Part shown: positions 328-18,138 of the stretch, one piece after another
Layout of the letters: every line of letters begins with the position of its first letter
Numbering within the stretch: position 1 is the first letter of the stretch
Assembly: GCF_900100855.1 (NCBI RefSeq)
Contig: NZ_FNCB01000001.1
Location: forward strand, 1-64,000
DNA from: Idiomarina zobellii
GTDB taxonomy: Bacteria > Pseudomonadota > Gammaproteobacteria > Enterobacterales > Alteromonadaceae
Direction: 5' to 3'
DNA length: 64,000 bases
Notes under the pieces: generated by a model
Database searches by the model: none
Seen by the model: only the letters and a program-made list of their open reading frames with translations
What the model was told of the DNA's origin: nothing
Translations under genes and position numbers: made by a program

Positions 328-334
328 ACGCACA

Positions 335-421
335 CAAAAGAAAATTGAACATTTGAAAGCTGAAAAGAAAGCTCTAATGCAGCAGCTCCTTACGGGAAAA
401 CGAAGAGTTAGTATCAGTTAA
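335..421 (+). pseudogene. hsdS: hsdS 3' remnant: last 28 codons of type I restriction specificity subunit
   Basis: From 335 the plus strand reads in frame QKKIEHLKAEKKALMQQLL, then TGKRRVSIS and a stop at 419-421. This is the typical coiled C-terminus of HsdS (conserved helix, then LMQQLLTGKRR). The remainder of hsdS is replaced by the IS, so the gene has been interrupted 28 codons before its end. The next gene begins 13 bases later, so hsdS was the upstream member of this operon. An HsdS protein without its C-terminal dimerisation helix, or none, is predicted. Confidence 0.85.
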
Positions 422-434: not shown

Positions 435-2288
435 ATGAGCAAATTAGAAAACAAAATCGAAGCAAGACACCGTAATCTTTACGACGTTCTCAACCAGCAA
501 AAGTATACAGTAGACTATTTCCAGCGCGAATACAGCTGGAGCGAAAAACATATCGAAGAGCTTGTAACTGATTTAACGTCTGCATTTTTGAGTGAGTACA
601 CTCCAGGCGACAAGCGCGAACAAGGCGAGCAATACAATAATTATTATCTAGGCCCATTTGTCGTCAGTAGCAAAGATGGAAAGCGCAGCATTATCGATGG
701 TCAGCAACGTTTAACCTCACTGACGTTATTTTTAATTTATCTAAACAATTTACAAAAAGAGCTCGGCTATAACGAAGTAATTGAACCCCTAATTTTTTCA
801 GAGCTTCGAGGCAGTAAGTCCTTTAATATTACGGTGGAAGAACGTACCCCTTGCCTTGATAGCCTCTTCAATCACGGCGAATTCATACCCTCTGATGATA
901 CATCAGAATCAACTCGTAATATGGCAGAGCGTTATCAGGATATAGTTAGAGCTTTTCCTGATGAGCTCAAAAGTGATGCTTTTCCATTTTTTATTGACTG
1001 GCTACAGTTAAACGTAATCATGGTTGAAATTATCGCTTATTCTGATGAGAACGCTTACACGATATTTGAGACTATGAACGACAGAGGTCTTAATTTAACC
1101 CCTTCAGAAATGTTAAAGGGTTATGTTCTATCTCGTCTAGACAACCCCAATAAACGACACAAAGCCAACGAGCTATGGAAGCACTCCATGCTCAAGCTTA
1201 AAGCCTATGACAAAGATGAGGATCAGAGGTTTTTTCAGTCCTGGTTAAGAGCTAGATACGCAGACAGTATTCGACCAGGTAAAGCAGGCTCCAAAAATGA
1301 GGATTTTGAAAAAATAGGCACACGATTTCATAGTTGGGTGCGCGATAATCTACAAAAGGTAAATCTAGATACCAGCGATACCGAGACCTTTGAACGTTTT
1401 GTGCAGCAGGATTTACATTTTTACCTAAAGGCTTACCAACGCATCCTAGATGCGGAGCGCAAACTAACTCATGGCCTAGAGCCAGTTTATTACATAAAGC
1501 ATTGGGGCATCGCCCCTACTCTAAGCTTTCCTTTAATGCTAGCGGCATTAAACATCAATGACGATGAGGCGACAGTAACAGATAAGATAAAAACGGTAGC
1601 GACCTACATAGAAACCTTTGTTGTTAGAAGAGCAGTTAATTTTCGAAACTTCTCTGCCAGCTCCATTCGTTACACAATGTACAGCTTAGTAAAGGAAATA
1701 CGTAGTGTTGATTTACCGACATTAAAGCGCCTTCTGTCTCAAAGATTAACAGACATGAAGGAGTCGTTCGATGGTATGGATAAGTTTCGTATGCATGGTC
1801 AAAATAAGCGCTTTGTTAAATTTTTACTTGCTCGTATGACTGCATGGTGTGAACAGCAAGCAGGTATGAGTACGGATTTCGATACGTATTATCAACCTAA
1901 AACTGGCAAGCCTTTCGAAGTAGAGCATATTTGGGCTGACAAATTCTCCCGACATAAAGACGAATTCGAACAGGAACATGAGTTTCAAGCTTTTCGTAAC
2001 CGCTTAGGTGATTTAGTACTGCTACCCCGTGGTACTAACCAGTCATACGGAGATTTACCATTCGAGCAAAAACAGGCTCACTACATTAAAGAAAACTTAC
2101 TTGTTAAGTCACTTTGCCCTTTAGCCTATAAAAACAACCCAAACTTTTTGCTCTTGACCAATAAGTTAGAGCTACCTTTTTCAGCTCATATAAATTTCAA
2201 AAAGGAAGATATTAAAAAGCGGCAAGCACTGTATTGCGAAATATGTAAATCTATATGGCCTGAGGATTTAACACTTAAAACAACTTAA
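435..2288 (+). CDS. GmrSD-like DUF262/DUF1524 nuclease
   Basis: A 617-residue protein with an N-terminal DUF262 domain (FQREYSWSEKHIEEL at about 30-44, DGQQR at about 88-92, the nucleotide-binding ParB-like motif) and a C-terminal DUF1524 HNH-type nuclease domain (VEHIWADKF at about 495, then NRLGDLVLLPRGTNQ). This is the architecture of single-chain GmrSD and BrxU-type enzymes, which use nucleotide hydrolysis and cut modified phage DNA (family knowledge). AAGGAGG at 424-430 sets the start. It follows the hsdS remnant by 13 bases and precedes the ATPase by 23, in an operon with restriction genes. Base composition is visibly more AT-rich than in hsdR. Target specificity cannot be read from the sequence. 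Confidence 0.85.
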   Translation: MSKLENKIEARHRNLYDVLNQQKYTVDYFQREYSWSEKHIEELVTDLTSAFLSEYTPGDKREQGEQYNNYYLGPFVVSSKDGKRSIIDGQQRLTSLTLFLIYLNNLQKELGYNEVIEPLIFSELRGSKSFNITVEERTPCLDSLFNHGEFIPSDDTSESTRNMAERYQDIVRAFPDELKSDAFPFFIDWLQLNVIMVEIIAYSDENAYTIFETMNDRGLNLTPSEMLKGYVLSRLDNPNKRHKANELWKHSMLKLKAYDKDEDQRFFQSWLRARYADSIRPGKAGSKNEDFEKIGTRFHSWVRDNLQKVNLDTSDTETFERFVQQDLHFYLKAYQRILDAERKLTHGLEPVYYIKHWGIAPTLSFPLMLAALNINDDEATVTDKIKTVATYIETFVVRRAVNFRNFSASSIRYTMYSLVKEIRSVDLPTLKRLLSQRLTDMKESFDGMDKFRMHGQNKRFVKFLLARMTAWCEQQAGMSTDFDTYYQPKTGKPFEVEHIWADKFSRHKDEFEQEHEFQAFRNRLGDLVLLPRGTNQSYGDLPFEQKQAHYIKENLLVKSLCPLAYKNNPNFLLLTNKLELPFSAHINFKKEDIKKRQALYCEICKSIWPEDLTLKTT

Positions 2289-2311
2289 AGGATAAAATAA
2301 AAAGGACTTAT

Positions 2312-3841
2312 ATGAACATCAAGGCGAGAGTCTCTGGACTGATTAGTGATATTAGCGAGGGAATGTATGAGCGAGAGGAAATCATTGCACTCGCTCTACT
2401 CGGTGCGCTATCCGGCCAAAATACATTCCTCCATGGACCTCCGGGAACAGCTAAGAGCTTAATATCTCGAAGAATTGCCAGTGCGTTTGGTGAGCATTCC
2501 TATTTTGAATATTTAATGAACCGGTTCAGTACGCCAGAAGAGGTTTTTGGTCCGGTATCAATCAAAGAGTTAAAGAACGACAACTACATACGTAAAACGA
2601 ACCGGTATCTGCCAACGGCAGAATTTGCCTTTCTTGATGAAATTTGGAAGTCTAGCCCTGCAATTCTAAACGCTCTGCTTACCGTCATTAATGAACGAAC
2701 CTTTCACAATGGCAACACGTCAGAAAGTGTTCCTCTAAAAGCTCTCATTGCGGCATCCAATGAGACGCCTCCTGAAAACCAAGGCCTGGAGGCACTTTAT
2801 GACCGATTCATAATCCGATTGCATGTGCCACCAATTAGTAAACTTGAGCACTTCGAAAAGCTTATCAACTCCAAACCGTCTAGGGCTAAAGTAAAAGTTG
2901 ATGACAGTATTAAAGTGACTACCGCTGAATGGGAAGGTTGGCGAGAAGACATTCATAACGTGAAGCTGTCGCGAGAAACCTTAACAACCGTCCATTTAAT
3001 TAGGGAACAGCTAGCGAGTAAGTTCGATCAACTTGGCATTTACGTTTCCGATAGACGTTGGCAAAAAGCTGCTCTTTTGCTGAAATCATCGGCCTTCTTT
3101 AACGGTAGAACAATGACAAACCCAAGTGACAACTTGCTGCTATCACATTGTTTGTGGACAGAGCAAAAACACCGGTCGGATGTAATGCATATTGTCCATC
3201 AGGCCATAAAAGACACCGGTTTAATTCATGAAAAAAATATTGCAGCGCTAATTCAAGATAAAGAACGCATCGAGAAAGAGATCCAGCAAAAGCTGTTCTA
3301 CCAAGAGGATGTGTTTAAAGAGATAATCGTAAACAATGAACCCCACCTAGTCTTGCAAGTTCCTGATCCTGAACATTACAACCATGGTAAAAAACAGCCT
3401 CACTCACGTACGGTCCTTATTCCTCGTAAAATGTATAAGACCAACTCAGTTCTCGAACCGACTGACCGTTACGGCAATGTTCTTCATCTTTTTCGATGTA
3501 ACTCAACTGATGAGGGAAGCTTTGAGTTTTTCTCCCAAAATAGTGACTTTGAGACTTACATAGCTACGCCTGACGTACGAATTAAAAAAGGCAGTAAGCG
3601 TAACGATGTAAGTGACCAACAAGTTGAACATTGGCGTTCATTAATTTTTGGCGTAAAAGATCAGCTTGAAAGCTGTATAAACGATATAAAACGTCGCGCA
3701 GAAAATTTACAGAGCGAACTAAACTCTGTTTTTATAATGCCCGAGAACGTTAAGTTTATCCATTTAGCTGTAACCGACCAGCTAGAGCATTTGAAGCTGC
3801 AACGCGAAGATTGTAATAAAATTGAAGCGTTATGCAGTTAG
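2312..3841 (+). CDS. RavA-like MoxR-family AAA+ ATPase
   Basis: A 509-residue AAA+ protein. Walker A is GPPGTAKS at 42-49 and Walker B FAFLDE at 105-110, followed by a sensor region ending AASNE and LEALYDRF. The block FEYLMNRFSTPEEVFGP is highly characteristic of RavA. The C-terminal half has no obvious motif, as expected for the LARA and triple-helical regions of RavA. E. coli RavA works as a hexameric ATPase with the VWA protein ViaA; here too the VWA gene follows directly, overlapping by 10 bases. Location inside a restriction operon suggests a defence or complex-remodelling role rather than the usual respiratory-complex role; that is inference. Confidence 0.85.
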   Translation: MNIKARVSGLISDISEGMYEREEIIALALLGALSGQNTFLHGPPGTAKSLISRRIASAFGEHSYFEYLMNRFSTPEEVFGPVSIKELKNDNYIRKTNRYLPTAEFAFLDEIWKSSPAILNALLTVINERTFHNGNTSESVPLKALIAASNETPPENQGLEALYDRFIIRLHVPPISKLEHFEKLINSKPSRAKVKVDDSIKVTTAEWEGWREDIHNVKLSRETLTTVHLIREQLASKFDQLGIYVSDRRWQKAALLLKSSAFFNGRTMTNPSDNLLLSHCLWTEQKHRSDVMHIVHQAIKDTGLIHEKNIAALIQDKERIEKEIQQKLFYQEDVFKEIIVNNEPHLVLQVPDPEHYNHGKKQPHSRTVLIPRKMYKTNSVLEPTDRYGNVLHLFRCNSTDEGSFEFFSQNSDFETYIATPDVRIKKGSKRNDVSDQQVEHWRSLIFGVKDQLESCINDIKRRAENLQSELNSVFIMPENVKFIHLAVTDQLEHLKLQREDCNKIEALCS

Positions 3842-5328
3842 AGCCAATCATACTTTCAGTAAAGCAAGTAACTGAAGCAGCGACTTCTAAAATAAACCCA
3901 AACTTGCCGAGCAGTGCATTTTTATTGAACCAGGTTGAAGAGCGCGGACTTATCTGGCGAACCCGTATTACTCATGAACTAAAAACCCAAGACCCATTTA
4001 TGCAAGAAGAATTTCTTGCAAAAAAATGGGCCGAAGACATTAAAAATGGTGATGTCAATCCAGTTAAGCTATCAGAAGCGGTAAAGCTTTTCATGAGCAC
4101 AGCTACTACTTTAGGCAATTCAATAAGCCTGTCATACTGGGATCAGCAAGCGACGCAATTTGAATCCGCTAATAATAACGATACAGAGGAACTGTTTACT
4201 GTCTCCAAGCTTTTAGATCTTGAATGGCAAAAGCTGATTGACGAAGCGCGATTGCAATGGCAACACGAACAGCTGGCAATAAAACGGGCCAAGTTCACTC
4301 AAGACATGTTTGAACTCATTAATAACGTCGAGATAGTGACTCAACACATTCAAACACTGGGTTTTGACCCTCATATTTATTTCAGTCCTCTTGCAACCGG
4401 CGAGCTCAAGCCGGGAGATATAGAGCTTATCAAACGTTGGTCCTCCTATTTAGAGGACGATGACGGCATAAAAAGGCTCTGCGAACTACTTGGAAGAATA
4501 CGCCATGATGAGGCTCGTGAGCGATTAGAATCTGTGAAGGTAAGTCATAATGTTGACATCCCTACCTCCAATTTAAACTCAAAAGAAGAAATAATTGGTA
4601 TCAAACTAGGCAACGACATCGAGAATGCGATACCGAGTGAGCTCGCTTTGCTTTCAGACCCGGACGCATCCTTACTTTTTGACCTTAAACTTATCGAATC
4701 AAGACTCATGTGCTTTGATCTGCAAGGGGCCGGCTTTATTTCTGAAGAGCGCGAGATTATCGAAGAGCATTTGGCTAACGAAGAAAAAGAGAATGGCCCT
4801 TTTATTATCTGTGTCGATACAAGTGGCTCTATGACTGGTGAACCTGAGGCTGTTGCAAAAGCAGTGACATTATTTATTGCTAGTACAGCCGAAAAACAAA
4901 AGCGAAGCTGTTATCTCATCAATTTCTCCAACGACATCCATTATTTTGATGTCGGCAAAGGCGTTGGTTTGGAATCGTTGATTGAATTTCTAAAAATGTC
5001 TTTTAATGGTGGAACCGATGTAACGCCAGCAATATCACACGCAATAAAAGTTATGTCGGAAGAAGTATATAAAGACGCAGATTTGTTAGTTATATCTGAC
5101 TTTATCATGGGGAATATACCGAAGCGTTTGGTGTCAAAAATCGAGAGACTGCAACAAAACGGAAACCAGTTTTATTCTCTAACCATCGCGTCTATAGATA
5201 AGAGTGAGCAATTGGGTGCACTTTTTGATGACGAGTGGGTATTTGATCCCTACACTAGTTCAGTAAAAGAATTAGTTAAGTTTAAACGAGAGCTTAACAG
5301 TAAGACACGGAGTCAGGCTAATGGCTAA
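3832..5328 (+). CDS. ViaA-like von Willebrand factor A protein
   Basis: A 498-residue protein with a long helical N-terminus and a C-terminal VWA domain. The MIDAS metal site is DTSGSM at about residue 330, with the supporting GGTDVTP near 392 and an SDF near 425. It is the expected partner of the upstream MoxR ATPase: the pair matches RavA-ViaA in order and size. Its start lies within the last codons of the ATPase gene and its last codons overlap the start of hsdR by 8 bases, so translation of all three is probably coupled. The substrate is unknown. Confidence 0.8.
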   Translation: MQLEPIILSVKQVTEAATSKINPNLPSSAFLLNQVEERGLIWRTRITHELKTQDPFMQEEFLAKKWAEDIKNGDVNPVKLSEAVKLFMSTATTLGNSISLSYWDQQATQFESANNNDTEELFTVSKLLDLEWQKLIDEARLQWQHEQLAIKRAKFTQDMFELINNVEIVTQHIQTLGFDPHIYFSPLATGELKPGDIELIKRWSSYLEDDDGIKRLCELLGRIRHDEARERLESVKVSHNVDIPTSNLNSKEEIIGIKLGNDIENAIPSELALLSDPDASLLFDLKLIESRLMCFDLQGAGFISEEREIIEEHLANEEKENGPFIICVDTSGSMTGEPEAVAKAVTLFIASTAEKQKRSCYLINFSNDIHYFDVGKGVGLESLIEFLKMSFNGGTDVTPAISHAIKVMSEEVYKDADLLVISDFIMGNIPKRLVSKIERLQQNGNQFYSLTIASIDKSEQLGALFDDEWVFDPYTSSVKELVKFKRELNSKTRSQANG

Positions 5329-8300
5329 CGCCCCAAAATTTCAGGAAGAATACGCTGCTAAAATACCCGCAATGACACTATTAGCCGGTTTGGGCTGGTC
5401 CTTTTTATCGCCGCAGGAAGCGCTGGCGATGCGCGGGGGTAAGCAAGACCGAGTCGTGCTGCGCGAAGTATTACGAGATGTGCTGAACAAGCGAACCTTT
5501 CATTACGCCGGTAAAAGCTATCCGTTGTCCGATAACTCCATTGATAACATCGTCTCGCACCTGTGCAGCCCTGCCCTAAATGAAGGCCTCCAGCACGCCA
5601 ACGAGGCGATTTACAACCATTTAATGTACGGTATTCCGGTGACGGAGTTCGTCGACGGGAAAAAGGTCACGCCCACCGTCTCTATCATCGACTGGCAGAG
5701 CCCGGACAATAACCAGTTTCACTTTACCGAAGAATACACGGTGACGCGTGCCGGAGGCTTTGATAGCCGTCGTCCTGATCTAGTTTGTTTTGTAAATGGT
5801 CTACCGTTGGTGGTCATTGAGGCCAAACGCCCGGATGGTAATTCGCAAAAAGGACCAACGATAAACGAAGGCATTTCCCAGAGTCTACGTAACCAGCGCC
5901 CTGACGAAGTCCCTCACCTGTTTGCGTATTCGCAACTGTTGTTGTCGGTCAATGGCATTGATGGGCGCTATGGCACCGTAGAGACCCCGGAAAAATTCTG
6001 GGCCGCCTGGAAAGAAGAAGATATCACCGACGCTGAAATGATGGCGTTGAAAAATAAAGCGTTGGATGATGCCACCCTGCAACATTTGTTCGATCACCGT
6101 GATAAGCGTGACCTGAGCTGGTATCAAAACCTGCTTGCCGGTGGTGAGTTGATGGTGACCGGCCAGGATAAGCTGCTGATAAGCCTTCTGTCTAAAGAGC
6201 GCCTGTTCGATATGGTGCGCTACTTCACTATTTTCGATAAAAAGATTGGCAAGATTGTCGGACGTTACCAACAAGTCTTTGGCATCAAGCGGCTAATCGA
6301 GCGTATTCAAAAGCGCAACAGCAAAGGCGGTCGCGAAGGTGGTGTTATCTGGCATACCACCGGCTCGGGTAAGTCCTTCACCATGGTGTTTTTATCCAAA
6401 GCGCTGATTTTGCACGAAGAGCTGAAGCAATGCCGGGTCATCGTTGTCACCGACCGTGTTGATTTAGAAAACCAGCTCTCGAAGACCTTTGCCTCTGGCG
6501 GCGAGCTGTCCAGTAAAAAAGACAAAGAGGCGGCCATGGCCACGTCGGGCAAGCGCCTGGCTCAGCAAATAGGTAAAGGCAATGAGCGCATTATCTTTAC
6601 GCTGATTCAGAAGTTTAACTCAGCCACCAAACTGCCGGAGTGTCACAACGACAGCCCCAACATTATTGTATTGATTGACGAGGGTCACCGCAGTCAAGGC
6701 GGCGAAAACAACATTCGCATGAACCAGGCATTGCCGAATGCGTCCTTTGTCGCCTTTACCGGCACACCACTGTTAAAAGACGATAAAACCACGAATAAAT
6801 TCGGACCCATTGTGCATGCCTACACCATGCAGCGTGCGGTCGAAGATAAAACCGTGACGCCCCTGCTCTACGAAGAGCGAATACCCGACCTGGACGTGAA
6901 CGAGCGAGCTATCGACGCCTGGTTCGAGCGTATGACGGACGGCTTAAGTGACGAGCAAAAAGGCGATTTAAAGAAAAAATTCAGCCGTCGCGGTCAGGTA
7001 TATGGCACTGACGAGCGTATTCAGCTTATTGCGTACGATATTGCTCATCATTTCGATAAAAATATCGATGAAGGCTTAAAAGGTCAGTTGTGCTGTGACA
7101 GCAAAGCCTCAGCTATAAAGTACAAAAAATATCTGGACGAAGTCGGCTTATTTGAATCAGCCGTGGTCATGAGCTCACCCGATACTCGCGAAGGCAATAC
7201 CTCGGTTGACGAAAAAACCATGCCGGAAGTCAGTAAATGGTGGAAGGAGCATGTAGGCTCATCTGATGAACAGAATTACACCAAAGAGCTGGTCGAACGC
7301 TTTGATAAAGACCCTAAGCTGAAGCTATTGATTGTGGTTGATAAACTATTAACCGGCTTTGATGAGCCAAAAAATACTGTGCTTTACATCGACAAGCCGC
7401 TTAAAGGTCACAACCTCATTCAGGCGATTGCTCGCGTGAACCGTCTGCACCCCGACAAGAAGTTTGGTCTGCTGATTGATTATCGCGGCATTCTGTCCGA
7501 GCTCGATACCACCATAAAGGAATATCAGGATCTGGCTTCACGTACCCAGGGCGGTTACGACATCGATGATATTGATGGTCTTTACCAGCAGATGAGTACC
7601 GAGTACAAACGCCTACCCCAGCTTTATAAAGAGCTGTGGGCGATATTTGACGGTGTTAAGAATAAATCAGACACCGAAGCGCTACGTCATGCCCTGTTGC
7701 CTCGTATGGAAGAAATAAACGGCGAAATGGTCGATAAAAACCAAAAACGCCGCGAAGACTTTTACGAAGCACTCACAGCCTTTGCCACTTGCCTTAAAGT
7801 TGCTCTGCAGTCGGCTACCTTCTTTGAAGATAAGAGCTTTTCCGATAAAGACCGTCGACAATACAAAGAGACGGTGAAACAACTGTCCAGTCTTCGTCAA
7901 ACCGTGCAACAGGATTCCGGCGAGCGTATCAGTTACGACGAGTACGCACAGGAAGTCAAAAAGCTACTGAACAAACATGTGGTCAGCGTTGGCGTCCGTG
8001 ATTCGGAAGGTGTTTATGAAGTCGGTAAAATGGGCCAGAAACAAGCACCTGAAGACTGGAGCGAAGATAAAACCCGCAACGAAACCGATATCATCAAAAC
8101 TCGCGTTACCAAAATGATTGAGCAAGAGCTCGGTGACGACCCTTACGCTCAGGAAGCCTTTTCTAAGCTATTGCGTGAAGCCATTGAAGACGCGGAAAAG
8201 CTGTTTGAGCATCCGCTGAAACAGTACATGCTGTTCCGTGAATTTGAGGAGCAGGTACAAGAGCGTCGCTTGGATGATATCCCTGAACGGTTGACCGGCA

Positions 8301-8599
8301 ACCATCATGCACAAGCCTATTACGGCGTGTTCAAAAAGCACCTACCTGAAGCGTTTACAGTCATGGATGAACAAGCGCAGGATAAATGGGTAGAGATTGC
8401 GTTTGATGTCGATAGCATCGTTAGCCAGTCCGTTGCGGAAAACTCGATTAACCCGAATAACATTGAAGCTGATATCCGTAAAAAGCTACTGCCGAAGATT
8501 TTTGCGGAATGCAAAGCCGTCGGCGGCGGTATCGAGCAGGCGAAAAAGATTGTCGAAGCCGTTGTGCAAGTTGTTCGTGTTGGGCAATTAGGTCATTAA
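5321..8599 (+). CDS. hsdR: Type I restriction endonuclease subunit R
   Basis: A 1092-residue HsdR. The N-terminal PD-(D/E)xK nuclease is visible as RRPDLVCF then VVIEAKRP at about 150-172. The SF2 translocase follows: Walker A TGSGKSF near 347, DEGH near 452, FTGTP near 479, and the motif VI region IQAIARVNR. Length and domain order are normal, so this subunit looks intact. It needs HsdM and HsdS to act; hsdS is disrupted at 335 and hsdM is not in view. GC content is visibly higher than in the three genes upstream, which suggests those were inserted into an hsdS-hsdR unit. Confidence 0.93.
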   Translation: MANAPKFQEEYAAKIPAMTLLAGLGWSFLSPQEALAMRGGKQDRVVLREVLRDVLNKRTFHYAGKSYPLSDNSIDNIVSHLCSPALNEGLQHANEAIYNHLMYGIPVTEFVDGKKVTPTVSIIDWQSPDNNQFHFTEEYTVTRAGGFDSRRPDLVCFVNGLPLVVIEAKRPDGNSQKGPTINEGISQSLRNQRPDEVPHLFAYSQLLLSVNGIDGRYGTVETPEKFWAAWKEEDITDAEMMALKNKALDDATLQHLFDHRDKRDLSWYQNLLAGGELMVTGQDKLLISLLSKERLFDMVRYFTIFDKKIGKIVGRYQQVFGIKRLIERIQKRNSKGGREGGVIWHTTGSGKSFTMVFLSKALILHEELKQCRVIVVTDRVDLENQLSKTFASGGELSSKKDKEAAMATSGKRLAQQIGKGNERIIFTLIQKFNSATKLPECHNDSPNIIVLIDEGHRSQGGENNIRMNQALPNASFVAFTGTPLLKDDKTTNKFGPIVHAYTMQRAVEDKTVTPLLYEERIPDLDVNERAIDAWFERMTDGLSDEQKGDLKKKFSRRGQVYGTDERIQLIAYDIAHHFDKNIDEGLKGQLCCDSKASAIKYKKYLDEVGLFESAVVMSSPDTREGNTSVDEKTMPEVSKWWKEHVGSSDEQNYTKELVERFDKDPKLKLLIVVDKLLTGFDEPKNTVLYIDKPLKGHNLIQAIARVNRLHPDKKFGLLIDYRGILSELDTTIKEYQDLASRTQGGYDIDDIDGLYQQMSTEYKRLPQLYKELWAIFDGVKNKSDTEALRHALLPRMEEINGEMVDKNQKRREDFYEALTAFATCLKVALQSATFFEDKSFSDKDRRQYKETVKQLSSLRQTVQQDSGERISYDEYAQEVKKLLNKHVVSVGVRDSEGVYEVGKMGQKQAPEDWSEDKTRNETDIIKTRVTKMIEQELGDDPYAQEAFSKLLREAIEDAEKLFEHPLKQYMLFREFEEQVQERRLDDIPERLTGNHHAQAYYGVFKKHLPEAFTVMDEQAQDKWVEIAFDVDSIVSQSVAENSINPNNIEADIRKKLLPKIFAECKAVGGGIEQAKKIVEAVVQVVRVGQLGH

Positions 8600-8602
8600 G
8601 CC

Positions 8603-9385
8603 ATGAACGTTGCGATACGTTTTGCTGATCAGGTTTCTGAGAAACATCAGCCATACGGGGATAAACTTAGCTTTTATTATTCCGACGAGCTGATTGAGTT
8701 TCAGCGCGTTGCCGCTAAAAGCCCTGATCGTAAAATTAAAATAAAGGTTTTGCCTGATTGCTCGGTAAAAGTTGCTGCTCCTGAAGACAGCTCCGATGAT
8801 GAGGTATTACGCGCTGCCAAAAAACGGGCGCGCTGGATTTACCAGCAACTACGAGAGTTTCGTAAGCAGCTAACGCACATTATTCCACGCCGTTATGTTA
8901 GCGGTGAAAGTCATTACTACCTGGGCAAGCAATACGTACTCAAAGTGCTGATAAAACCCGACCAAGCAGCTGGTGTTAAACTACTTCGCGGTCAACTTGA
9001 AGTGAGCGTGCGTGAGTACACTACTGAGCGTGTAAAGACAGCATTAGAATGCTGGTATAAGGTCAGAGCCAAAGACGTCTTCCACAAGCGTTTAGACGCC
9101 GTTTTAGAGCAAGCATTGTGGGTTGATAAGCGCCCTCCTCTGCGAATACTCACGATGCAAACCCAATGGGGCAGCTGTTCGCCTAACGGACGCATCACCT
9201 TAAACCCTCTGCTGGTTAAAGCACCCCGAGAGTGCATTGACTATGTCATACTGCACGAGCTTTGCCATATCGCTGAGCACAACCACAGCGAACGGTTTTA
9301 TCGGCTTATGGGACAGGTTATGCCGAATTGGGAACGTGTTAAGGGTCAGCTGGATCAGATGGCTGGGCGAATTTTTAATGGGTAA
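8603..9385 (+). CDS. YgjP/M48-like zinc metallopeptidase linked to hsdR
   Basis: A 260-residue protein that starts 4 bases after hsdR. The zinc motif HELCHIAEHNHSERF lies near residue 217 (HExxH plus downstream His), preceded by MQTQWGSCSPNGRITLNP, the signature of the YgjP/DUF45 (SprT-like) family. No signal peptide or membrane segment is seen, so it is cytoplasmic. Genes of this family are common at the end of type I restriction operons, but their substrate is unsettled; it may proteolyse a restriction subunit. Its final 38 codons and downstream sequence are duplicated at 11167-11347. Confidence 0.85.
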   Translation: MNVAIRFADQVSEKHQPYGDKLSFYYSDELIEFQRVAAKSPDRKIKIKVLPDCSVKVAAPEDSSDDEVLRAAKKRARWIYQQLREFRKQLTHIIPRRYVSGESHYYLGKQYVLKVLIKPDQAAGVKLLRGQLEVSVREYTTERVKTALECWYKVRAKDVFHKRLDAVLEQALWVDKRPPLRILTMQTQWGSCSPNGRITLNPLLVKAPRECIDYVILHELCHIAEHNHSERFYRLMGQVMPNWERVKGQLDQMAGRIFNG

Positions 9386-9448
9386 CCTGAACGTTATCGC
9401 TTTAGTGGCACACTAAATTTGTGAACCTAATTAGGTGGTGTAACCGTG
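9269..9448 (+). repeat. Imperfect direct repeat, copy A (end of peptidase gene plus downstream)
   Basis: This covers the last 38 codons of the metallopeptidase gene, its stop and about 60 bases downstream. Copy B is at 11167-11347 in the same orientation, with scattered substitutions that are mostly conservative at protein level. The HNH gene lies between the copies. Confidence 0.85.
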
Positions 9449-9495
9449 TTTTTGGAAACTACTTGTCAGCTCTTATCAGAAGCCATATTTTATGA

Positions 9496-11055
9496 CTATC
9501 CAAAGCGCTTGGATTTATTTTCCGCATGTTTCCGTGCCTTTATCGCTTCTTCTTTGGTGTGGAAAGTCCCTATGGTTTTTCCAGAAAGGTATGCGCGCCA
9601 CTTGCCTTCGTGTTGAGAGTCTTTGACTACGCCAGCGAAGCCAGTCGTGTTGCTTTTCATTAGGGGCTGATTTGCCATATTTTGTGCGTGGCTTACCAAT
9701 CTGAGGTTTGCGATCCTGTTATCCAGAGAGTTTAAATTGATATGGTCTATTTCGAGACCTGTTGCAGGCGGCCAGACACCATAGCAATAAAGCCACGCGA
9801 GATGTGAGGAATGATAATCTTTACCAAGCACTGTGCAATAATGATACCTGTTTCGCCGAAATCCACTAGGCTCAGCTTTTGTAAGTCTCGTGTTTAAGCC
9901 AGCATCACCTTTCCTTTTTAAGTTTCTTTGTCTAAGTGTAAAAATACCCGTGTGAGGATCGTAGTGAATGAGCTCTTTTAAAACTGCTTGCTTTTTAATT
10001 GGGTCTTTTTCACTTTGAAAGTAGTCCTCGCTTGGACAGGCTGCCAACCAGTTATCGATTCGCAAATCGTGTTTATCACCATTTTTACAAATTAAACCAT
10101 GATCTGGCTTTGGTCGACCTTCATACGACCAGATTAACTCTTGAGCTGTGTACCTGCGTGACTTGAAGCGCACCAATACAGGCTGCCCCTTTATGTAACG
10201 ACCAGCTCTTTCCCCAGCATACTGTGTGTTATGCTTTTTATCGCTTTTTGTCACTTCTTCACGCTTTCGCCAATGAAGTTTACCCCGCACCGCATCGTAA
10301 TAAAATGCTGCTCTAATTTCAGCGCCGTCAGGAAAAGGGTTTTTGATTGGTGTTTTACCTTTTTTAATTTTTGGTTTGTATTTTGAAGTGTTACGAGCGT
10401 TTTCTGCTTGAGTGACAACACGAAGATTATTGATTGAATTATTTGCTGGGTTTCTATCGATATGGTCGATGACAAGCCCTTCGGCTGGCAGTTCACCAAA
10501 CACGTATAACCATGCCCACCGGTGAGCCTTGCGTTCTTTATTGCAAATTTTAAAAATTTGATAGCCGTCATGATACCTAACACGAACAGGTTTACCGGCA
10601 TTTTTATTCAAAAAGCTGCGATCATTGGAGTTGCGTGGCCTTCTGAACTGCCATTTGAAAGTTCCTGTCCGTTCATTGTAATACACAAACTCCTTAATAT
10701 TGCTGGCATCAATTTTTACCGGGGTAACATCTTGTTCAGCCCAGTTAGCGAAAGATAAATCTGTATTGTCTCCATTCAAGCTGAAAATCCCTCTTTCAGA
10801 CGGTAGTTCGCCTTTCACTAGCACCCAGACTATTATTGCACCAGAAATTAGATGAAATTTTCTACTCTTTTTGCTCCAATACCTGAGACGAAGGCTACGA
10901 TCTTTTTCTAGGTAAAAAGTTACATTATCTCCGGCTTTATTTCTAAGATGATCTGTCTTCCACCGTAATTCACCAGCTGAGTCTAGATAAAATAAATTTT
11001 TTATCTCTAATGGCGTAGGATAAATACTGAGGTCAAGTTTCTTCACTAAAGTCAT
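9496..11055 (-). CDS. Four-module HNH endonuclease-like protein with AP2-like tail
   Basis: A 519-residue protein made of four related blocks. Each starts with a short strand pattern (YDPHTGIFTLR, YNERTGTFKW, YDAVRGKLHW, LDSAGELRW) and ends where an HNH_3 motif would be. Modules 2 and 4 keep the HNH core (VIDHIDRNPANNSINNLRVV near 193; EIDHINLNSLDNRIANLRLV near 433). Modules 1 and 3 lack the histidines. The tail (SNTTGFAGVVKD...KWRAYL...GTFHTKEEAIKAR) is AP2-like DNA-binding. Ordinary phage or homing HNH proteins have one such module. It converges on the peptidase gene and lies between direct repeats, so recent transfer is likely. Confidence 0.75.
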   Translation of the reverse strand: MTLVKKLDLSIYPTPLEIKNLFYLDSAGELRWKTDHLRNKAGDNVTFYLEKDRSLRLRYWSKKSRKFHLISGAIIVWVLVKGELPSERGIFSLNGDNTDLSFANWAEQDVTPVKIDASNIKEFVYYNERTGTFKWQFRRPRNSNDRSFLNKNAGKPVRVRYHDGYQIFKICNKERKAHRWAWLYVFGELPAEGLVIDHIDRNPANNSINNLRVVTQAENARNTSKYKPKIKKGKTPIKNPFPDGAEIRAAFYYDAVRGKLHWRKREEVTKSDKKHNTQYAGERAGRYIKGQPVLVRFKSRRYTAQELIWSYEGRPKPDHGLICKNGDKHDLRIDNWLAACPSEDYFQSEKDPIKKQAVLKELIHYDPHTGIFTLRQRNLKRKGDAGLNTRLTKAEPSGFRRNRYHYCTVLGKDYHSSHLAWLYCYGVWPPATGLEIDHINLNSLDNRIANLRLVSHAQNMANQPLMKSNTTGFAGVVKDSQHEGKWRAYLSGKTIGTFHTKEEAIKARKHAENKSKRFG

Positions 11056-11166
11056 TCCTATGATCTTTCTAAGCTATATGGAAAGATAGCAGTATATTTG
11101 TAAATCGCTAATGCAACGCAGCCTCTGTAGGAGAAGTTCAAACCACCCACGACAACCCCTTAACCA

Positions 11167-11283
11167 ATAGCTGAACACAGCCACAGCGAGCGATTTTATC
11201 GGCTGATGAGACAAGTTATGCCTAATTGGGAGCGAGTTAAGGAGCAGTTGGATCAGATGGCTGGGAGGATTTTTAGTGGTTAA
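11167..11283 (+). pseudogene. Duplicated 3' fragment of the metallopeptidase gene
   Basis: The frame opens at 11167 with IAEHSHSERFYRLM and runs 38 codons to a TAA at 11281-11283. It matches the end of the 8603-9385 product with four or so residue changes (for example N to S, G to R, G to E). No start codon or upstream part exists here, so it is a displaced fragment, not a gene. Confidence 0.85.
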
Positions 11284-11347
11284 CCTGAACGTTATCGCTT
11301 TAGTGGCACACTAAATTTGCGCTAGCTAATTAGGTGGTTTAGCGGTG
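11167..11347 (+). repeat. Imperfect direct repeat, copy B
   Basis: Partner of 9269-9448, beginning in the same codon and ending after the shared AATTAGGTGGT block, with one single-base length difference near 11320. The rest of the gene-free stretch 11056-11166 shows no recognisable element apart from the probable promoter region of the HNH gene. Confidence 0.85.
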
Positions 11348-11354
11348 CTTTTAT

Positions 11355-11380
11355 AAGGGGGAAGCACTTTCCCCCTTTCT
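11355..11380. terminator. Hairpin terminator after the cyclase gene
   Basis: A 9-bp stem (AAGGGGGAA / TTCCCCCTT) with a 5-base loop, pyrimidine-rich on the plus side. It sits immediately beyond the cyclase stop, between it and the duplicated peptidase tail, and could act in both directions. Confidence 0.6.
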
Positions 11381-11390
11381 TTCCTTTATT

Positions 11391-12431
11391 TTATTTAATC
11401 ACAATTGGATTAATAGGTGAGCCTGAGCCACGTTCCATTTTGAGCGGCGCTGCTGTAAACATAAAGGTATACTGCCCATCTTCAGCGCTGTCTTTTGCAA
11501 GGTCATCTAGCCAGTACAACTCACTAAGAACAACACCCAAATCCCGGATCAATGCTCCGTGAAGTGGTATCACGTAATCTTTTCCGTCAATAGTTTGCGG
11601 AACCAGTTCGACAGCAAGGTTATCCGCTGCAATCACTGGTATTTCCATATCATCAATCCAGTTGATTAGTTGTTTGCTATAACACAATCCGGGCTCTGTA
11701 GTTGCGCTCCATGGCGCGTCTGGTTCGTCCTGATAAAAGCGGCCAACGGAACCCGTTCTTATCAACAAAATGTCTCGTTTCTCGATTGTTACGTTTTGCG
11801 CTTCAGCTGTTTCTCGTAAATCATCAAGTGTAACGCAAGAGCTTGGTGCCAAACGGCTAGACTGACCGCCTTTGTGACTTCCAACATCCAATAAGACACC
11901 ACGACCAACAATGCCGTGCTCAGCAAGTTTGCCTACATCAACATGATCGTGCCCATGTACTGTACTATCGGCTGAAACGCCACCATAGACTTTATCGCCA
12001 TACCAAGCGTGACCTAATGCATCCATATGAGTCGTGCCTTGTAAATACATGAATACAGCATCGTCGGAGTACTTCACCCCACCGGCTAACTCATCAAGTT
12101 TATCCACAGAATACATACTTTCATCCTGTGTCATGAAATGCATGGCTGGCACTCTTCCAGGAAAGACAGGTCCGACTCCATGAGTAATCGGTAATTGCAG
12201 GGTGAATTTTTCACCTGTTTTTACAGCCTTAACGCCACGCAGTGCTTGTTCATCATCGAGGTAATTTAGTGCGCCAATTTGGTCATTCTCACCCCACTTC
12301 CCCCAGTTTTTCGGCATATCCTTTTGTAAATTTTCAATATCACTGCTTTGAGCAAAAGCCAGTGATGAAGAGCTTAGTCCCACAAGGGCGCTCAACACAG
12401 CGACAGATAAGATATTTTTGGATTTTTTCAT
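11391..12431 (-). CDS. Periplasmic cyclase-family metal hydrolase
   Basis: About 346 residues from the ATG at 12431, which has AAGGA upstream; an upstream in-frame start at 12476 is less likely because it precedes the signal peptide. The N-terminus (MKKSKN, hydrophobic core, AFAQ) is a Sec signal peptide. The conserved motif GTTHMDALGHAWYGD is the HxxTHxD metal site of the cyclase family (PF04199), which includes kynurenine formamidase and isatin hydrolase and hydrolyses cyclic amides or related bonds. It is the last gene of a sigma54-controlled operon with an aldehyde and an alcohol dehydrogenase, so it probably opens the substrate ring in the periplasm. The substrate is not identifiable. 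Confidence 0.8.
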   Translation of the reverse strand: MKKSKNILSVAVLSALVGLSSSSLAFAQSSDIENLQKDMPKNWGKWGENDQIGALNYLDDEQALRGVKAVKTGEKFTLQLPITHGVGPVFPGRVPAMHFMTQDESMYSVDKLDELAGGVKYSDDAVFMYLQGTTHMDALGHAWYGDKVYGGVSADSTVHGHDHVDVGKLAEHGIVGRGVLLDVGSHKGGQSSRLAPSSCVTLDDLRETAEAQNVTIEKRDILLIRTGSVGRFYQDEPDAPWSATTEPGLCYSKQLINWIDDMEIPVIAADNLAVELVPQTIDGKDYVIPLHGALIRDLGVVLSELYWLDDLAKDSAEDGQYTFMFTAAPLKMERGSGSPINPIVIK

Positions 12432-12466
12432 TGTTATTTTCCTTTTGTTGCTCGTAGTTTTACTTG

Positions 12467-13915
12467 TTAGTAACAAAGCTTGATGTACTTTGTTTCGAGG
12501 TACTCCGTAATGCCTTGTCGACCTCCTTCTCGGCCTAAGCCAGAGCTTTTAACTCCGCCAAAAGGCATCGCAGGATCTGAGATAACGCCAGTGTTAACGC
12601 CTACCATACCCACCTCTAACTCCGCAGCGAGGTCGTGGATCCGTTTCAGACTCTCGCTGTAAAAGTAAGCCGCTAAACCTGTATCCTGTGCTCTAAGTGA
12701 CGCAATGAGCGAATCTTCATCGCTATAGCGAACTAAAGGGGCGACTGGGCCGAAAACTTCTTCTTGAACACAGCGCATATCGGTTGTTGCTTCTGTGATC
12801 AATGTAGGAAGATACCAACGCTCCGACTCTGCCCAACGCTCGCCTCCATACACTATCTTGCCGCCTTTTTCTCTGGCATCTCTAACTAGTGCCTCCACCT
12901 TCTCCAGAGCCCGTTCATTAATGAGGGGACCTATATCGGTATGGGGATCACTGCCTAAGCCTAAGGAAAGTGCTTTTATTCGTTTTTCAAAAGCACTCGC
13001 AAAACGGTCATATAGCGAATCATGAACATAAAACGCATTCGCACAGACACAAGTTTGTCCGGCATTGCGAAACTTTGACTGCATCGCTCCTTCAACTGCT
13101 TTATCGATATCAGCATCGCTACAGACTATAAACGGGGCATTACCGCCCAATTCAAGCGAAAGGCGCTTAACGGTAGAGGCACAAGCTCGCATCAAGTGCC
13201 GCCCCACAGCTGTTGATCCAGTAAAGCTGAGCTTTTTAACCTGTTTGCTGGTGCACACTATGTCGCCTATAAGTTGTGCGTCACCAGTTACTACATTAAT
13301 CAGACCCGGAGGAACGCCGGCCAAAAGCGCCAGCTCTGACAATGCAAGTGCTGTAAATGGAGTCTCAGGTGCAGGTTTTATTATCATTGAACATCCTACA
13401 GCCAGAGCTGGTGCGACCTTTCGAGTTAACATCGCTGCTGGAAAATTCCAGGGAGTTATCGCAGCACAGACACCGACCGGCTCTGTAATTGTTTTCAACG
13501 ACTCACCCTCGGAACCATTGGGCATTGCGCTCCCGTTATCCTGCAACGCCGGTTGTGCGTACCACTTTACATAACTCGCCGCATAACGAACTTCTCCCAG
13601 GGCCTCAGCGAACGGCTTTCCTTGTTCTAGAGTAATGATTGACGCTAACCGCTCCTCATTCTCTTTTATCTTTTGGTACCAATTATTAAGTACTGCACAA
13701 CGTTCGTTTATCGAAGTCTTACGCCAACTATTGAAAGCACGCTCAGCAGTGGTAATCGCATAGCGAACTTGCTCCTCAGAGAGCTTTGGAACAGTGCCTA
13801 GCAGCTCTCCACTAGCTGGATTAAAAACCTTCAACGTATTGCTCCCGCTACACGGGATCCAATTTACGCCAATTAAGGCCGCCTGCTTTAAATCTACCTG
13901 TTTCTCATTCATCAT
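12467..13915 (-). CDS. Succinate-semialdehyde-type aldehyde dehydrogenase
   Basis: A 482-residue NAD(P)-dependent aldehyde dehydrogenase. It has TPWNFP near 154-159, the general base in LELGGN (Glu255) and the catalytic cysteine in GQTCVCAN (Cys289). The CVC arrangement is typical of GabD-like succinate-semialdehyde dehydrogenases. The start overlaps the activator gene by 11 bases (ATGATGAATGAG), so the two are probably coupled. Next to an iron alcohol dehydrogenase it would oxidise the aldehyde made from a primary alcohol; 4-hydroxybutyrate to succinate is one fitting route, but this is inference. Confidence 0.85.
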   Translation of the reverse strand: MMNEKQVDLKQAALIGVNWIPCSGSNTLKVFNPASGELLGTVPKLSEEQVRYAITTAERAFNSWRKTSINERCAVLNNWYQKIKENEERLASIITLEQGKPFAEALGEVRYAASYVKWYAQPALQDNGSAMPNGSEGESLKTITEPVGVCAAITPWNFPAAMLTRKVAPALAVGCSMIIKPAPETPFTALALSELALLAGVPPGLINVVTGDAQLIGDIVCTSKQVKKLSFTGSTAVGRHLMRACASTVKRLSLELGGNAPFIVCSDADIDKAVEGAMQSKFRNAGQTCVCANAFYVHDSLYDRFASAFEKRIKALSLGLGSDPHTDIGPLINERALEKVEALVRDAREKGGKIVYGGERWAESERWYLPTLITEATTDMRCVQEEVFGPVAPLVRYSDEDSLIASLRAQDTGLAAYFYSESLKRIHDLAAELEVGMVGVNTGVISDPAMPFGGVKSSGLGREGGRQGITEYLETKYIKLCY

Positions 13916-15281
13916 CTTGAGTTGGATTTCCCATCATTTTTGCTTTTAATCGTTGTTGTTTTTTTACTAATGTTGACTGGTCTATACCCAATGCTTGTGC
14001 CGCAGCTCGTGTCGTACCATGAACTTGGAGAGCCTCACTTATAAGCCTTAATTCAAGCTCATCCATCCGATGTCTCAACGAAAGCCCCTGCTTTCCTAGA
14101 AACTGCTCACCGATAAGTTCTCGAGGTAAATGAGCGGTCGTTATTAATGCTTGCTCACTGGTCACCACTAACCGCTCTACTAAATTTATTAATTCTCGAA
14201 TATTTCCAGGCCAATCGTAACGAGTAAGGCGCTCAACAACGCTCTGATGCCAACGACAGTCAAATTCATATTGTTGATTAAAATAACAAAGGTAGTGTTC
14301 CAATAGCGGCTCAATTTCCTCAGTACGCTCGCGAAGCGCAGGTAGCTCGATAGGTACCACACATATCCGGTAAAGAAGATCGGCCCGAAAGCGGCTCTCG
14401 GCAACCAGCGCCTTTAAATCGTGATGCGAGGCTGAAATGAGTCTAAAATTCGTCTGCCTGAATTCGGTCCCTCCGACCGGCAAAAAACGCTTCTCGGCAA
14501 TCACCTTCAATAGTTTTGCTTGCAACGACAGGGGTAAGTCGCCAATCTCATCCAGAAATAGAGTGCCGTTATTAGCCGCTTCAAGCAGCCCTGTTTTTCC
14601 TTTATTTGACGCACCAGTAAATGCGCCTGGTACATAACCGAATAGCTCTGCTTCCAACAGTGACTCGGGCATTGCGGCACAGTTAAGCTCAATAAAGGGT
14701 CCGCTACTGCATCGGCTATATTGATGAATAGTGCGTGCTAATAATGTTTTACCCGTCCCGGTCTCGCCTTGTAACAGTACTTTTGCCGCTGAGTTCGCTA
14801 CGCGCTTCGCAAGCTCGTAACATGCTTGGGTACGCGGGCTTACAATAAATGGCTCAGCCGGCCAGTCATGCTGTGCCGGACCGTATTGCTCTCGCACATT
14901 CAACAACTGTTCTAGTTGCTCTTCGGCACGCTTGGCTTGCAATAACTCGGTTACGTCTCGCACCGTTGTAACTACATATTCAATGCGTCCTCGGGCATCA
15001 ATCATCGGAGTGCCCGATACCAAAATTTTATGGTCATCGGTCAGAGCCTGTGTCAGTGTTACAGCGCGTCGCTCTTTCAATACTTCTAACGACACCGAAC
15101 GTGAAATGTAGCCGGCTTTAACCACTTCTGACATGTGCATGCCCTGCAAAGTGCGCTTTGGAATTCCTGTTATTCGCTCATAGGCTTTATTTACTGTGAT
15201 GGTTACTCCGTTCCCATCGGTAATGTAAACGCCATCACTCATGGCATCTAATACCCGTTGCAGGTTATCCCCGTGAAACAT
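13905..15281 (-). CDS. PAS-containing sigma54-dependent activator
   Basis: A 458-residue enhancer-binding protein: PAS sensor at about 5-115, AAA+ domain with Walker A GETGTGKT (172-179), the sigma54-contact loop GAFTGA (219-224) and Walker B LFLDEIGD (241-248), then a C-terminal helix-turn-helix ending LGIDQSTLVKKQQRL that resembles TyrR-type regulators. It lacks a response-regulator receiver domain, so the PAS domain probably senses a ligand directly. The gene lies in the operon it presumably controls, and its start shares one base with the permease stop (TGATG). Sigma54 promoters are at 17859-17874 and 18072-18087. Confidence 0.9.
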   Translation of the reverse strand: MFHGDNLQRVLDAMSDGVYITDGNGVTITVNKAYERITGIPKRTLQGMHMSEVVKAGYISRSVSLEVLKERRAVTLTQALTDDHKILVSGTPMIDARGRIEYVVTTVRDVTELLQAKRAEEQLEQLLNVREQYGPAQHDWPAEPFIVSPRTQACYELAKRVANSAAKVLLQGETGTGKTLLARTIHQYSRCSSGPFIELNCAAMPESLLEAELFGYVPGAFTGASNKGKTGLLEAANNGTLFLDEIGDLPLSLQAKLLKVIAEKRFLPVGGTEFRQTNFRLISASHHDLKALVAESRFRADLLYRICVVPIELPALRERTEEIEPLLEHYLCYFNQQYEFDCRWHQSVVERLTRYDWPGNIRELINLVERLVVTSEQALITTAHLPRELIGEQFLGKQGLSLRHRMDELELRLISEALQVHGTTRAAAQALGIDQSTLVKKQQRLKAKMMGNPTQDDE

Positions 15282-16633
15282 CAGCGTGTCTCCTTAGAAG
15301 GTGTCCGTAGACGCCAGCCATAAATCAAAAAACACAATAGAATCCCGGCAGCGAACGCCCAAGTTGCACCTTTTACTACCAAAATTGCGGCAATAACACC
15401 GGCAATTCCCAGATCGCGCTCGCTTTTGGCTTCCTGAATACCTATGCGTACACTGACGTAACCTTGGATCAATAGTGTCAGTGCCAGAGCAATCCCCAAG
15501 ATCGGTTGCACTAGACTAACGACTGGCAGTAGTAGTAAACCGGTATTGGTGCCCCAGCGAAACGATCCTGCGCCACCGAAGATGGAGTCCATCGCCTTGC
15601 GGCCTTTTTTAAAACGTTCAACAATTACCACATGCATTGCCGCCCATAGAGGTCCGCACATTGCTACGTCTGGTCCAATAATGCTCATACCAAAATTGCG
15701 AGCTCCAAAAATTATGTGAGCGCGATCAGGGCTATAATCAATTTTTTCATCCTGGCGAGCCTCATCAGCTTCATCCAAAATTGCCTTGCTCTGCAGGACA
15801 TCACCAAAAAGTACGATATAAGCCGCTAGCACCGTCGGAATTGCTGTAACAAACATCATTAATGGTGGCAGTCCAACACCGAAGAGCGTGTATTCTGTAA
15901 ACATCGTGACAAAATCTGGTGATGTCAGTCCCCACTCAATATCTGGCCAGGGAGCCTCACCAAACAGCGGTGCGACCACGATGGCAAGTGCAATGATGGG
16001 GAAAATTCCCAACTTACCTATCAGCGCTAATAACCAATGTTTATTTTGAATGGCTGCAAAGTGACGTGAAAAAATTAGGTAGAATGCAATACCAACCGCA
16101 ATGGATATTGTCATGGGGAAAGATTCAAAACGTCCCCCTTCTTCAAATACCACAGCAACAGCCGCTAAGCCGGCGCCCATAATGATGCCAGCCTTGATCG
16201 CGCTTGGAATATAATGAACAACTCGTCGGGCGATGCCCGAAGCACCCAATACCATGGCAAATGCGCCCAACATCATTTGAAAGGCGATTAGTGCATGTAC
16301 ACGACTCTCCCCCTCGGGAAAGGTTGAGACATACATCATTAACAAAGGTATTGCAGGAGTTATCCACCCTGGTACGACTGGATCACCAAGCAAATGGTGA
16401 AGCAAGTAAAATAGACCATTGATCAGGACGATCGCGAGTGCAGCTTCAAACGGCATACCCAGAAGCTCAGCCATTAATGAAATCGCGGCTAAATCTACCG
16501 CGCACATCAACAATCCCTGAAAGTAATCAGGCCACTCGAAGCGATAATGTAAAAATGGCAGCCTAATTTTAAATGGCCCTAATCCCCAAAATGGTGCTTC
16601 CGCGCCCGGTTTACGATGCTTCCATAACGACAT
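15281..16633 (-). CDS. Multi-pass permease, NCS2/SulP-like
   Basis: A 450-residue integral membrane protein with about a dozen hydrophobic segments and repeated glycine-rich helices (for example GLPPLMMFVTAIPTVLAAY and NFGMSIIGPDVAMCGPLWAA). It resembles the xanthine/uracil and benzoate permease folds (7+7 inverted repeat), but I cannot assign a substrate. The first 35 residues are cytoplasmic and polar. In the operon it would import the compound handled by the two dehydrogenases after the periplasmic hydrolase has acted. Confidence 0.65.
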   Translation of the reverse strand: MSLWKHRKPGAEAPFWGLGPFKIRLPFLHYRFEWPDYFQGLLMCAVDLAAISLMAELLGMPFEAALAIVLINGLFYLLHHLLGDPVVPGWITPAIPLLMMYVSTFPEGESRVHALIAFQMMLGAFAMVLGASGIARRVVHYIPSAIKAGIIMGAGLAAVAVVFEEGGRFESFPMTISIAVGIAFYLIFSRHFAAIQNKHWLLALIGKLGIFPIIALAIVVAPLFGEAPWPDIEWGLTSPDFVTMFTEYTLFGVGLPPLMMFVTAIPTVLAAYIVLFGDVLQSKAILDEADEARQDEKIDYSPDRAHIIFGARNFGMSIIGPDVAMCGPLWAAMHVVIVERFKKGRKAMDSIFGGAGSFRWGTNTGLLLLPVVSLVQPILGIALALTLLIQGYVSVRIGIQEAKSERDLGIAGVIAAILVVKGATWAFAAGILLCFLIYGWRLRTPSKETR

Positions 16634-16644
16634 GGCTCGTTTCC

Positions 16645-17808: not shown

Positions 17809-17858
17809 TGCGTTCCCTTTTTTGTCGTTATTTTTTAACACTTTATTATCAATAACAC

Positions 17859-18087: not shown

Positions 18088-18138
18088 GAGCTTATCTTGC
18101 ACATTCTTAATAACAAGAAAAAAACAGGGGAATACCAC

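Follow-up and report, generated by a model that had tools for sequence, protein, structure and literature searches.

A GmrSD-type nuclease and a MoxR-VWA gene pair as probably independent cargo of a type I restriction operon in Idiomarina zobellii

Both the presence of GmrSD nuclease genes in type I restriction operons and the gene slot that receives them are already known. In VPI-2 of Vibrio cholerae, a type I operon carries the GmrSD-family genes of TgvAB between its hsdS and hsdR (PMC11411939), and in the RptR-DarTG2 island DarTG2 occupies the same interval, which has been termed a potential recombination hotspot for defence systems, with an M48 gene named as a conserved neighbour (PMC12255303; the papers cited here were covered in part, and statements about them refer to the portions covered). 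The beginning of a 64,000-nucleotide stretch of Idiomarina zobellii (contig NZ_FNCB01000001.1, positions 1 to 64,000; hereafter the window) shows this interval holding a single-protein GmrSD-type nuclease, a RavA-like MoxR AAA+ ATPase and a ViaA-like protein with a VWA domain. The locus is probably one configuration of a slot with exchangeable cargo in a horizontally moving type I operon, with GmrSD and the MoxR-VWA pair as two independent cargos. An earlier note on this DNA held the composition to be undescribed, and so it appears from a literature that came largely without subscription papers and preprints: no paper was found on a MoxR/RavA-VWA pair inside a type I operon, nor any report of a RavA-ViaA-type pair in the slot or of its repeated company with HEPN genes.

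All genes of the locus stand on the forward strand. The nuclease gene (435-2288, 617 amino acids, DUF262 plus DUF1524) is followed by the genes for the MoxR ATPase (2312-3841, 509 amino acids), for the ViaA-like protein with its helical N-terminal part and VWA domain (3832-5328, 498 amino acids) and for the type I restriction subunit HsdR (5321-8599, 1092 amino acids). The one-strand order and the junctions of 13, 23, -10 and -8 bases reported in the earlier note are exact, and to its row can be added the gene of a YgjP-type metallopeptidase (8603-9385, forward strand, 260 amino acids, YgjP-like match at 2e-58) directly after hsdR, a position that a YgjP relative occupies in all 43 related loci examined. 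The arrangement is not a product of chance, because MoxR-VWA recurs between hsdS and hsdR in two other loci (L097 and L102) and GmrSD recurs there in a third (L093).

The interval between hsdS and hsdR is a hypervariable cargo slot, and most of its cargo is of defence type. A search with the window HsdR in 394 genomes of the order (E <= 1e-200) gave 34 places in 33 genomes; 32 fetched loci (L113-L144), the window and L097 were considered, of which L143, at a contig end, is not assessable. Same-strand open reading frames (ORFs) of at least 70 amino acids stand in 32 of the 33 assessable intervals, the one empty interval of this survey (L144) belonging to the most distant HsdR. The commonest cargo is a RhuM cluster (7 of 33), while MoxR-VWA occurs in two intervals (the window and L097) and a window-like GmrSD in one, the window itself. 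Twenty representatives, four of them from hand-picked loci (L104, L105 and two of L111), were scanned for their families, which comprise RhuM, SMODS with AGS_C, SMODS, SLATT, McrBC, its AAA partner, two kinds of KAP, AlbA_2/HATPase, SIR2_2, HerA, AAA_21/OLD-like, deaminase, GHKL, AAA_15, YhcG, DUF6161 and DUF6933, together with one CSD-like match under the cut-off and one protein without a match. Hand-picked loci of Escherichia coli, Klebsiella and Acinetobacter add YecA, CSD, a nucleotidyltransferase with SLATT, NucS with Abi, and one empty interval; the interval of E. coli MB57 (L107) is empty, and cargo genes are thus absent in some relatives. The RptR-DarTG2 island differs from the window in its cargo.

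GmrSD and MoxR-VWA are separate occupants of this slot. In Aeromonas caviae KAM479 (L093) GmrSD lies between hsdS and hsdR without MoxR-VWA, and two of the three type I loci with MoxR-VWA lack GmrSD: L097 (genome G1107) reads hsdS, YecA, MoxR, VWA, hsdR, ygjP, its contig ending within hsdS, and L102 (G1158) reads hsdM, hsdS, a 643-amino-acid gene with no Pfam or PADLOC match, MoxR, VWA, hsdR, ygjP. The fixed GmrSD-MoxR-VWA composite that the earlier note proposed therefore comes apart, GmrSD being found alone in L093 and in a Pantoea locus (L094) and the pair without GmrSD in L097 and L102; of the co-occurrence that it envisaged between hsdS and hsdR, the recurrence of MoxR-VWA stands (three type I loci, and some other defence loci besides), whereas a fixed three-family set is not supported. 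YecA and GmrSD were each considered as a dedicated partner of the pair and rejected, both being found in the slot without it. L093 and L097 share HsdRs of 96.1% identity yet differ in cargo, and the three MoxR-bearing loci have HsdRs that do not form one clade (approximately unbiased test, p 8e-71) in a tree of 28 rows from which most less similar HsdRs were left out. Between the window and L093, GmrSD is 85%, HsdR 76% and YgjP 65% identical, as would be expected if the GmrSD cassette moved later than the two backbones parted; a slower-evolving GmrSD could also give this pattern.

The nuclease carries PF03235 (GmrSD_N, 2e-33) and PF07510 (GmrSD_C, 4e-9) in a single protein, and a pattern search finds FQR, DGQQR and FxxxN at residues 29, 88 and 211, where the motif list given for GmrSD enzymes reads QR, DGQQR and FxxxN (PMC11411939). 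With regard to the H...N...H/N nuclease motif, an EH at residue 497 and asparagines around 523-538 are visible, in a comparison made without residue-by-residue alignment. PADLOC-DB 2.0.0 models match both this protein, with HEC-06 as the best, and HsdR, and match neither MoxR nor VWA of the window. HEC-05 and HEC-06 (Payne et al., preprint, as cited in PMC11411939) are likewise GmrSD-like genes embedded in defence operons, described, however, from Hma gene clusters. TgvAB differs in being a two-protein GmrSD, composed of two DUF262 proteins that are both needed, whereas the window slot holds one DUF262 gene and MoxR-VWA (PMC11411939). The Pantoea relative in L094 is 60% identical and has no defence gene annotated nearby. 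Four E. coli and Klebsiella loci (L105, L106, L109 and L110, at about 13677-17368) have, just outside the type I operon, a unit of two DUF262 genes whose layout is Tgv-like; in three of them an hhe gene comes next.

RavA-ViaA and NorQ-NorD pairs belong to established families that remodel or mature a client protein, and the clients of RavA-ViaA are debated. The window pair resembles RavA-ViaA of E. coli in its AAA core, lid and helix/beta/helix C-terminus, in a VWA protein with a metal ion-dependent adhesion site (MIDAS) and in an identical gene order, and differs from it in equivalog scores, in a divergent C-terminal sequence and in its defence context. Pfam places bpMoxR (5e-53), AAA_5 and AAA_lid_8 in MoxR, with nothing past the lid, and VWA_CoxE (7e-9) in its partner. 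The terms 'RavA-like' and 'ViaA-like' used in the earlier note are sound as statements of likeness, both scores lying clearly under the equivalog cut-offs: MoxR reaches 332 bits against NF010054 (RavA; cut-off 681), over residues 3-311 only, and VWA reaches 230 bits against NF008230 (ViaA; cut-off 500). Identity to 19 control pairs is 37-49% for MoxR (best stretch) and 28-34% for VWA. By sequence and by fold (Foldseek 5e-16) the best Protein Data Bank match of MoxR is RavA, while VWA has no convincing match there by sequence. The motifs of ATP binding and hydrolysis are found in MoxR (Walker A at residue 42, FLDE at 107), and the MIDAS of the VWA protein is complete (DTSGS at 329, GGTD at 393, SDF at 422).

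In RavA, a triple-helix domain is interrupted by a beta (LARA) domain. Two hints, the missing Pfam match past the lid and the failure of A4, a model of the C-terminal region of the clade's MoxR proteins, to match any control RavA, raised the idea of a MoxR without a LARA-like part, which was rejected on the strength of structure prediction. The predicted structure consists of an AAA core, a lid, a helix (310-328), strands (337-424) and two further helices (435-469 and 477-508), its Foldseek alignments to RavA span 525-556 columns, and the C-terminal part as modelled shares the layout of the LARA and triple-helix parts of RavA; this model was built from six sequences and is mostly confident in its C-terminal half, with a predicted local distance difference test score (pLDDT) below 50 in core residues 62-192. 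For the VWA protein, whose model has a mean pLDDT of 66.5, the best Foldseek matches are NorD and the MIDAS domain of MDN1.

Eleven loci hold the pair with a common divergent C-terminus (the window, L036, L037, L044, L045, L048, L095, L096, L097, L098 and L102). Against the control pairs and three Bacteroidota pairs their pairs form a single clade (bootstrap 100), which by sequence places the window pair in a clade sister to RavA-ViaA. The controls derive from 20 fetched RavA-ViaA-type loci, 19 of which yielded a pair, and one control locus, L161, proved to have HEPN and DISARM links of its own. The clade is sporadic: A4 matches 5 of the 394 genomes of the order, 2 of 75 in one family, and 1 of 246 in the window's own family, namely its own genome, and the VWA alignment A3 matches none of 18 other members of the genus. 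This spread is counted as a sign of horizontal movement. Neither the 20 control loci nor 12 viral contigs have an ORF that A4 matches; further scans, which were uninformative, gave no pair in viral contigs with the VWA alignment, no MoxR C-terminal part in plasmids, and nothing in a single-protein scan of genome contigs. The twelve viral contigs (L165-L176) hold a relative of the MoxR core, nine of them also a VWA match, and none the C-terminal part of the clade. Equally uninformative, the DNA of the L097 MoxR gene finds matches in 1431 of 5426 E. coli genomes; the 15 listed are all ravA, and no place covers 80% of it. Within the clade, MoxR-VWA of L097 and L102 are sisters (100). L102 also contains a Cas8/Cas5f fusion and TniQ (719-4107) and, beyond the type I operon with its MoxR-VWA, TniB and an rve transposase (17327-19998), so that the operon is apparently cargo of a type I-F CRISPR-associated transposon.

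Some members of the clade, and a more distant MoxR-VWA group, adjoin HEPN, McrBC, Tgv-like or DISARM genes. The pair stands in the type I slot in three of the eleven clade loci. In L044 (Pseudoalteromonas lipolytica) HEPN_RiboL-PSP lies directly upstream and two DUF262 genes downstream; in L095 HEPN_RiboL-PSP is again directly upstream, with McrBC upstream as well; a ThsB-like TIR gene is divergent from MoxR in L096, and an AAA/PDDEXK_9 gene precedes the pair in L048. The upstream gene of L036, taken by eye for an Mrr-like nuclease, is unsupported as such by Pfam and PADLOC. Outside the clade, L161 (G566) has the row CARF/RtcR-type regulator, MoxR, VWA, HEPN, DrmA, DrmB (1273-12570), and L177, a Vibrio halioticoli plasmid, has the first four of these genes in identical order (4288-9519), a row that suggests, from its gene content, a MoxR-VWA-HEPN operon controlled by RNA damage or a second messenger. 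HEPN thus adjoins MoxR-VWA in four loci and in both gene orders, two of the four being headed by the RtcR-type CARF regulator; three plasmid records have a relative of this HEPN, and in one of them the pair is adjacent.

The nearest concept to the window pair is that of the MoxR-vWA ternary conflict systems, in which a MoxR and vWA core, likewise with the bpMoxR domain, stands beside variable effectors (PMC7159879, PMC12839542); unlike those systems, as described in the portions covered, the six window genes scanned (435-11055) contain no beta-propeller, iSTAND or vWA-fused peptidase. CoCoNuT superoperons also unite restriction systems, HEPN, RtcR-type CARF and VWA genes in one operon, with, however, a TerY-type VWA and McrBC core, and the part of that paper covered here shows no MoxR-VWA pair (PMC11090510).

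On the reading preferred here, hsdM-hsdS-[cargo]-hsdR-ygjP would be the backbone of a mobile type I operon, the cargo of which would be exchanged by recombination in the conserved flanks. The substrate of GmrSD type IV restriction enzymes is DNA carrying sugar-modified hydroxymethylcytosine. The single-protein GmrSD is predicted to cleave phage DNA whose cytosines are modified and would so complement the type I enzyme, a cutter of unmodified DNA. The MoxR hexamer would most likely spend ATP to remodel a client presented by the VWA/MIDAS protein, as is thought for RavA-ViaA and NorQ-NorD, and we infer that the pair is defensive, its client in this clade being presumably a defence effector or a protein of the invader, with HEPN as the strongest candidate in loci that have it. 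For pairs in the type I slot, the simplest reading would be an independent, co-transcribed second line. A wider proposal, which we put forward tentatively and regard as doubtful, is that the mobile MoxR-VWA family constitutes an unrecognised defence engine, an AAA+/MIDAS remodeller switching on an adjoining effector upon infection. Possibly, then, the HEPN ribonuclease would be the recurrent effector, and Tgv-like, McrBC, DISARM and type I genes other company; just as speculatively, the family would have been captured by type I operons and once, apparently, by a CRISPR-type transposon. In turn, RavA-ViaA could be a domesticated relative of this mobile family.

Several observations weigh against cargo independence or a defensive role. 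Defence-type genes neighbour the pair in most clade loci: in a comparison with 96 reference proteins, 7 of 11 clade loci have a matching neighbour, as do 2 of 19 controls, one of these two being L161 (Fisher 0.004), but this control is small and partly circular, and with self-references removed the counts are 5 of 11 against 2 of 19 (Fisher 0.068). By the same references and the ORF lists, L037, L045 and L098 have no defence neighbour. A tally of PADLOC matches among neighbours gives a rough contrast, with at least 180 families over 88 proteins in the 11 clade loci against at least 37 over 104 proteins in 11 of 20 controls. The type I-embedded pairs (the window, L097 and L102) form a weak clade in one tree (69/88), while in another the window branches first (87), and by these trees one old capture, with the pair later staying with type I systems, is possible and would be a closer tie than that of plain cargo.

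Such a tie is the substance of an improbable alternative, in which the pair is a type I accessory that assembles, activates or restrains HsdR or HsdMS, much as ClpXP acts in restriction alleviation. Besides the possible single clade of embedded pairs, it can draw on the overlap of the VWA stop with the hsdR start in all three MoxR-bearing type I loci, and a special link of the pair to HsdR may lie behind this. The overlap was nevertheless rejected as special, since with start codons picked by a simple rule the hsdR start is overlapped in 13 of 43 loci, including 11 of the 41 with other cargo or none; and because the slot takes many unrelated genes and such overlap also occurs without the pair, adjacency gives weak grounds for thinking that GmrSD or HsdR is a target of the motor. 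Moreover, the HsdRs of L114 and L093, 93-96% identical to the L097 protein, have no such pair beside them, and 8 of the 11 clade loci have no type I gene match near it. It is also quite improbable that the pair is a housekeeping RavA-ViaA-type chaperone hitch-hiking in the operon without a defence role; its sequence is nearest the RavA-ViaA models, its MoxR fold is nearest RavA, and RavA-ViaA is tied to respiratory enzymes and the membrane (PMC10585395, PMC9489729), but the pair falls in a distinct clade that has a C-terminal sequence of its own, is sporadically distributed, and stands in defence loci (the type I slot, HEPN with McrBC, HEPN with Tgv-like genes, TIR). Least of all is it to be expected that GmrSD, MoxR and VWA are one system whose AAA+/MIDAS motor loads or remodels the nuclease, as the tight one-strand gene order and the pair beside two DUF262 genes in L044 (in another order, with no hsd gene among the listed ORFs) might suggest, since the closely similar GmrSD of L093 sits in the slot without the pair, L097 and L102 have the pair without GmrSD, a DUF262 gene adjoins the pair in just 2 of 11 clade loci (the window and L044), and related single-protein GmrSD enzymes work alone (PMC11411939).

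Whether as exchangeable cargo or otherwise, the genes now stand in an operon whose hsdS is broken. The window holds only the last 30 or so codons of hsdS (333-421, forward strand, stop at 421), because it is the start of contig C21 and begins inside an insertion element, the end of which (1-332, no strand assigned) is recognised by repeat copies, terminal sequences and a 6-bp duplication, and which we take to be IS21-like. Positions 1-329 recur at C29:14-342, a stretch 82% alike is found at C3:268-350 and on three other contigs, and the terminal sequences of the two ends of the element start alike. The rest of hsdS (264-1412, Methylase_S) and hsdM (1405-2922, N6_Mtase) are ORFs on the minus strand of contig C3 (locus L017), which read backwards gives hsdM, then hsdS as far as the element's opposite end. 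The flanks of C3 and C21, when joined, give a single in-frame hsdS of 379 amino acids with a 6-bp target duplication, and we infer from this fit, not from reads, that the two contigs are neighbours. All three hsd genes are thus present, hsdR with HSDR_N, SWI2_SNF2 and T1R_D3-like domains (Pfam scan), 492 bits against TIGR00348, above its cut-off, 1389 bits against PADLOC REase_I, and helicase and nuclease motifs by the pattern search that also finds HExxH in the YgjP-type peptidase. Since the element splits hsdS, this strain has probably lost the activity of its type I enzyme, in methylation as well as restriction. Provided that they are transcribed, GmrSD and MoxR-VWA could nonetheless function; a promoter scan was uninformative, with 11 sites against 14.1 expected.

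The hsdS of A. caviae L093 is likewise interrupted, by several transposase-like ORFs as judged by eye (1009-8831), and hsdS may be a frequent insertion target or its loss may be tolerated. On C3, a 1929-amino-acid protein resembling, as judged by eye, fused tyrosine recombinases (L017, 3222-9624) adjoins hsdM and points away from it, and may represent a mobile element carrying the island. Farther beyond the interrupted operon, a gene of SIR2-like appearance by eye and a 938-amino-acid gene (L017, 10067-13781) are possibly a two-gene defence system. Just past the operon in the window there is a homing-endonuclease-like protein of 519 amino acids with two HNH_3 stretches (9496-11055, minus strand).

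What had been a guessed three-gene system becomes a testable general rule, namely that type I operons of this family have a defence-rich cargo slot between hsdS and hsdR. In I. zobellii the slot holds a nuclease for modified DNA and a protein-remodelling gene pair, and the MoxR-VWA module, which had no match in PADLOC-DB 2.0.0, is singled out as a defence candidate that may be an unrecognised, movable module. Defence-linked relatives of RavA-ViaA beside a HEPN gene would offer a concrete client to test.

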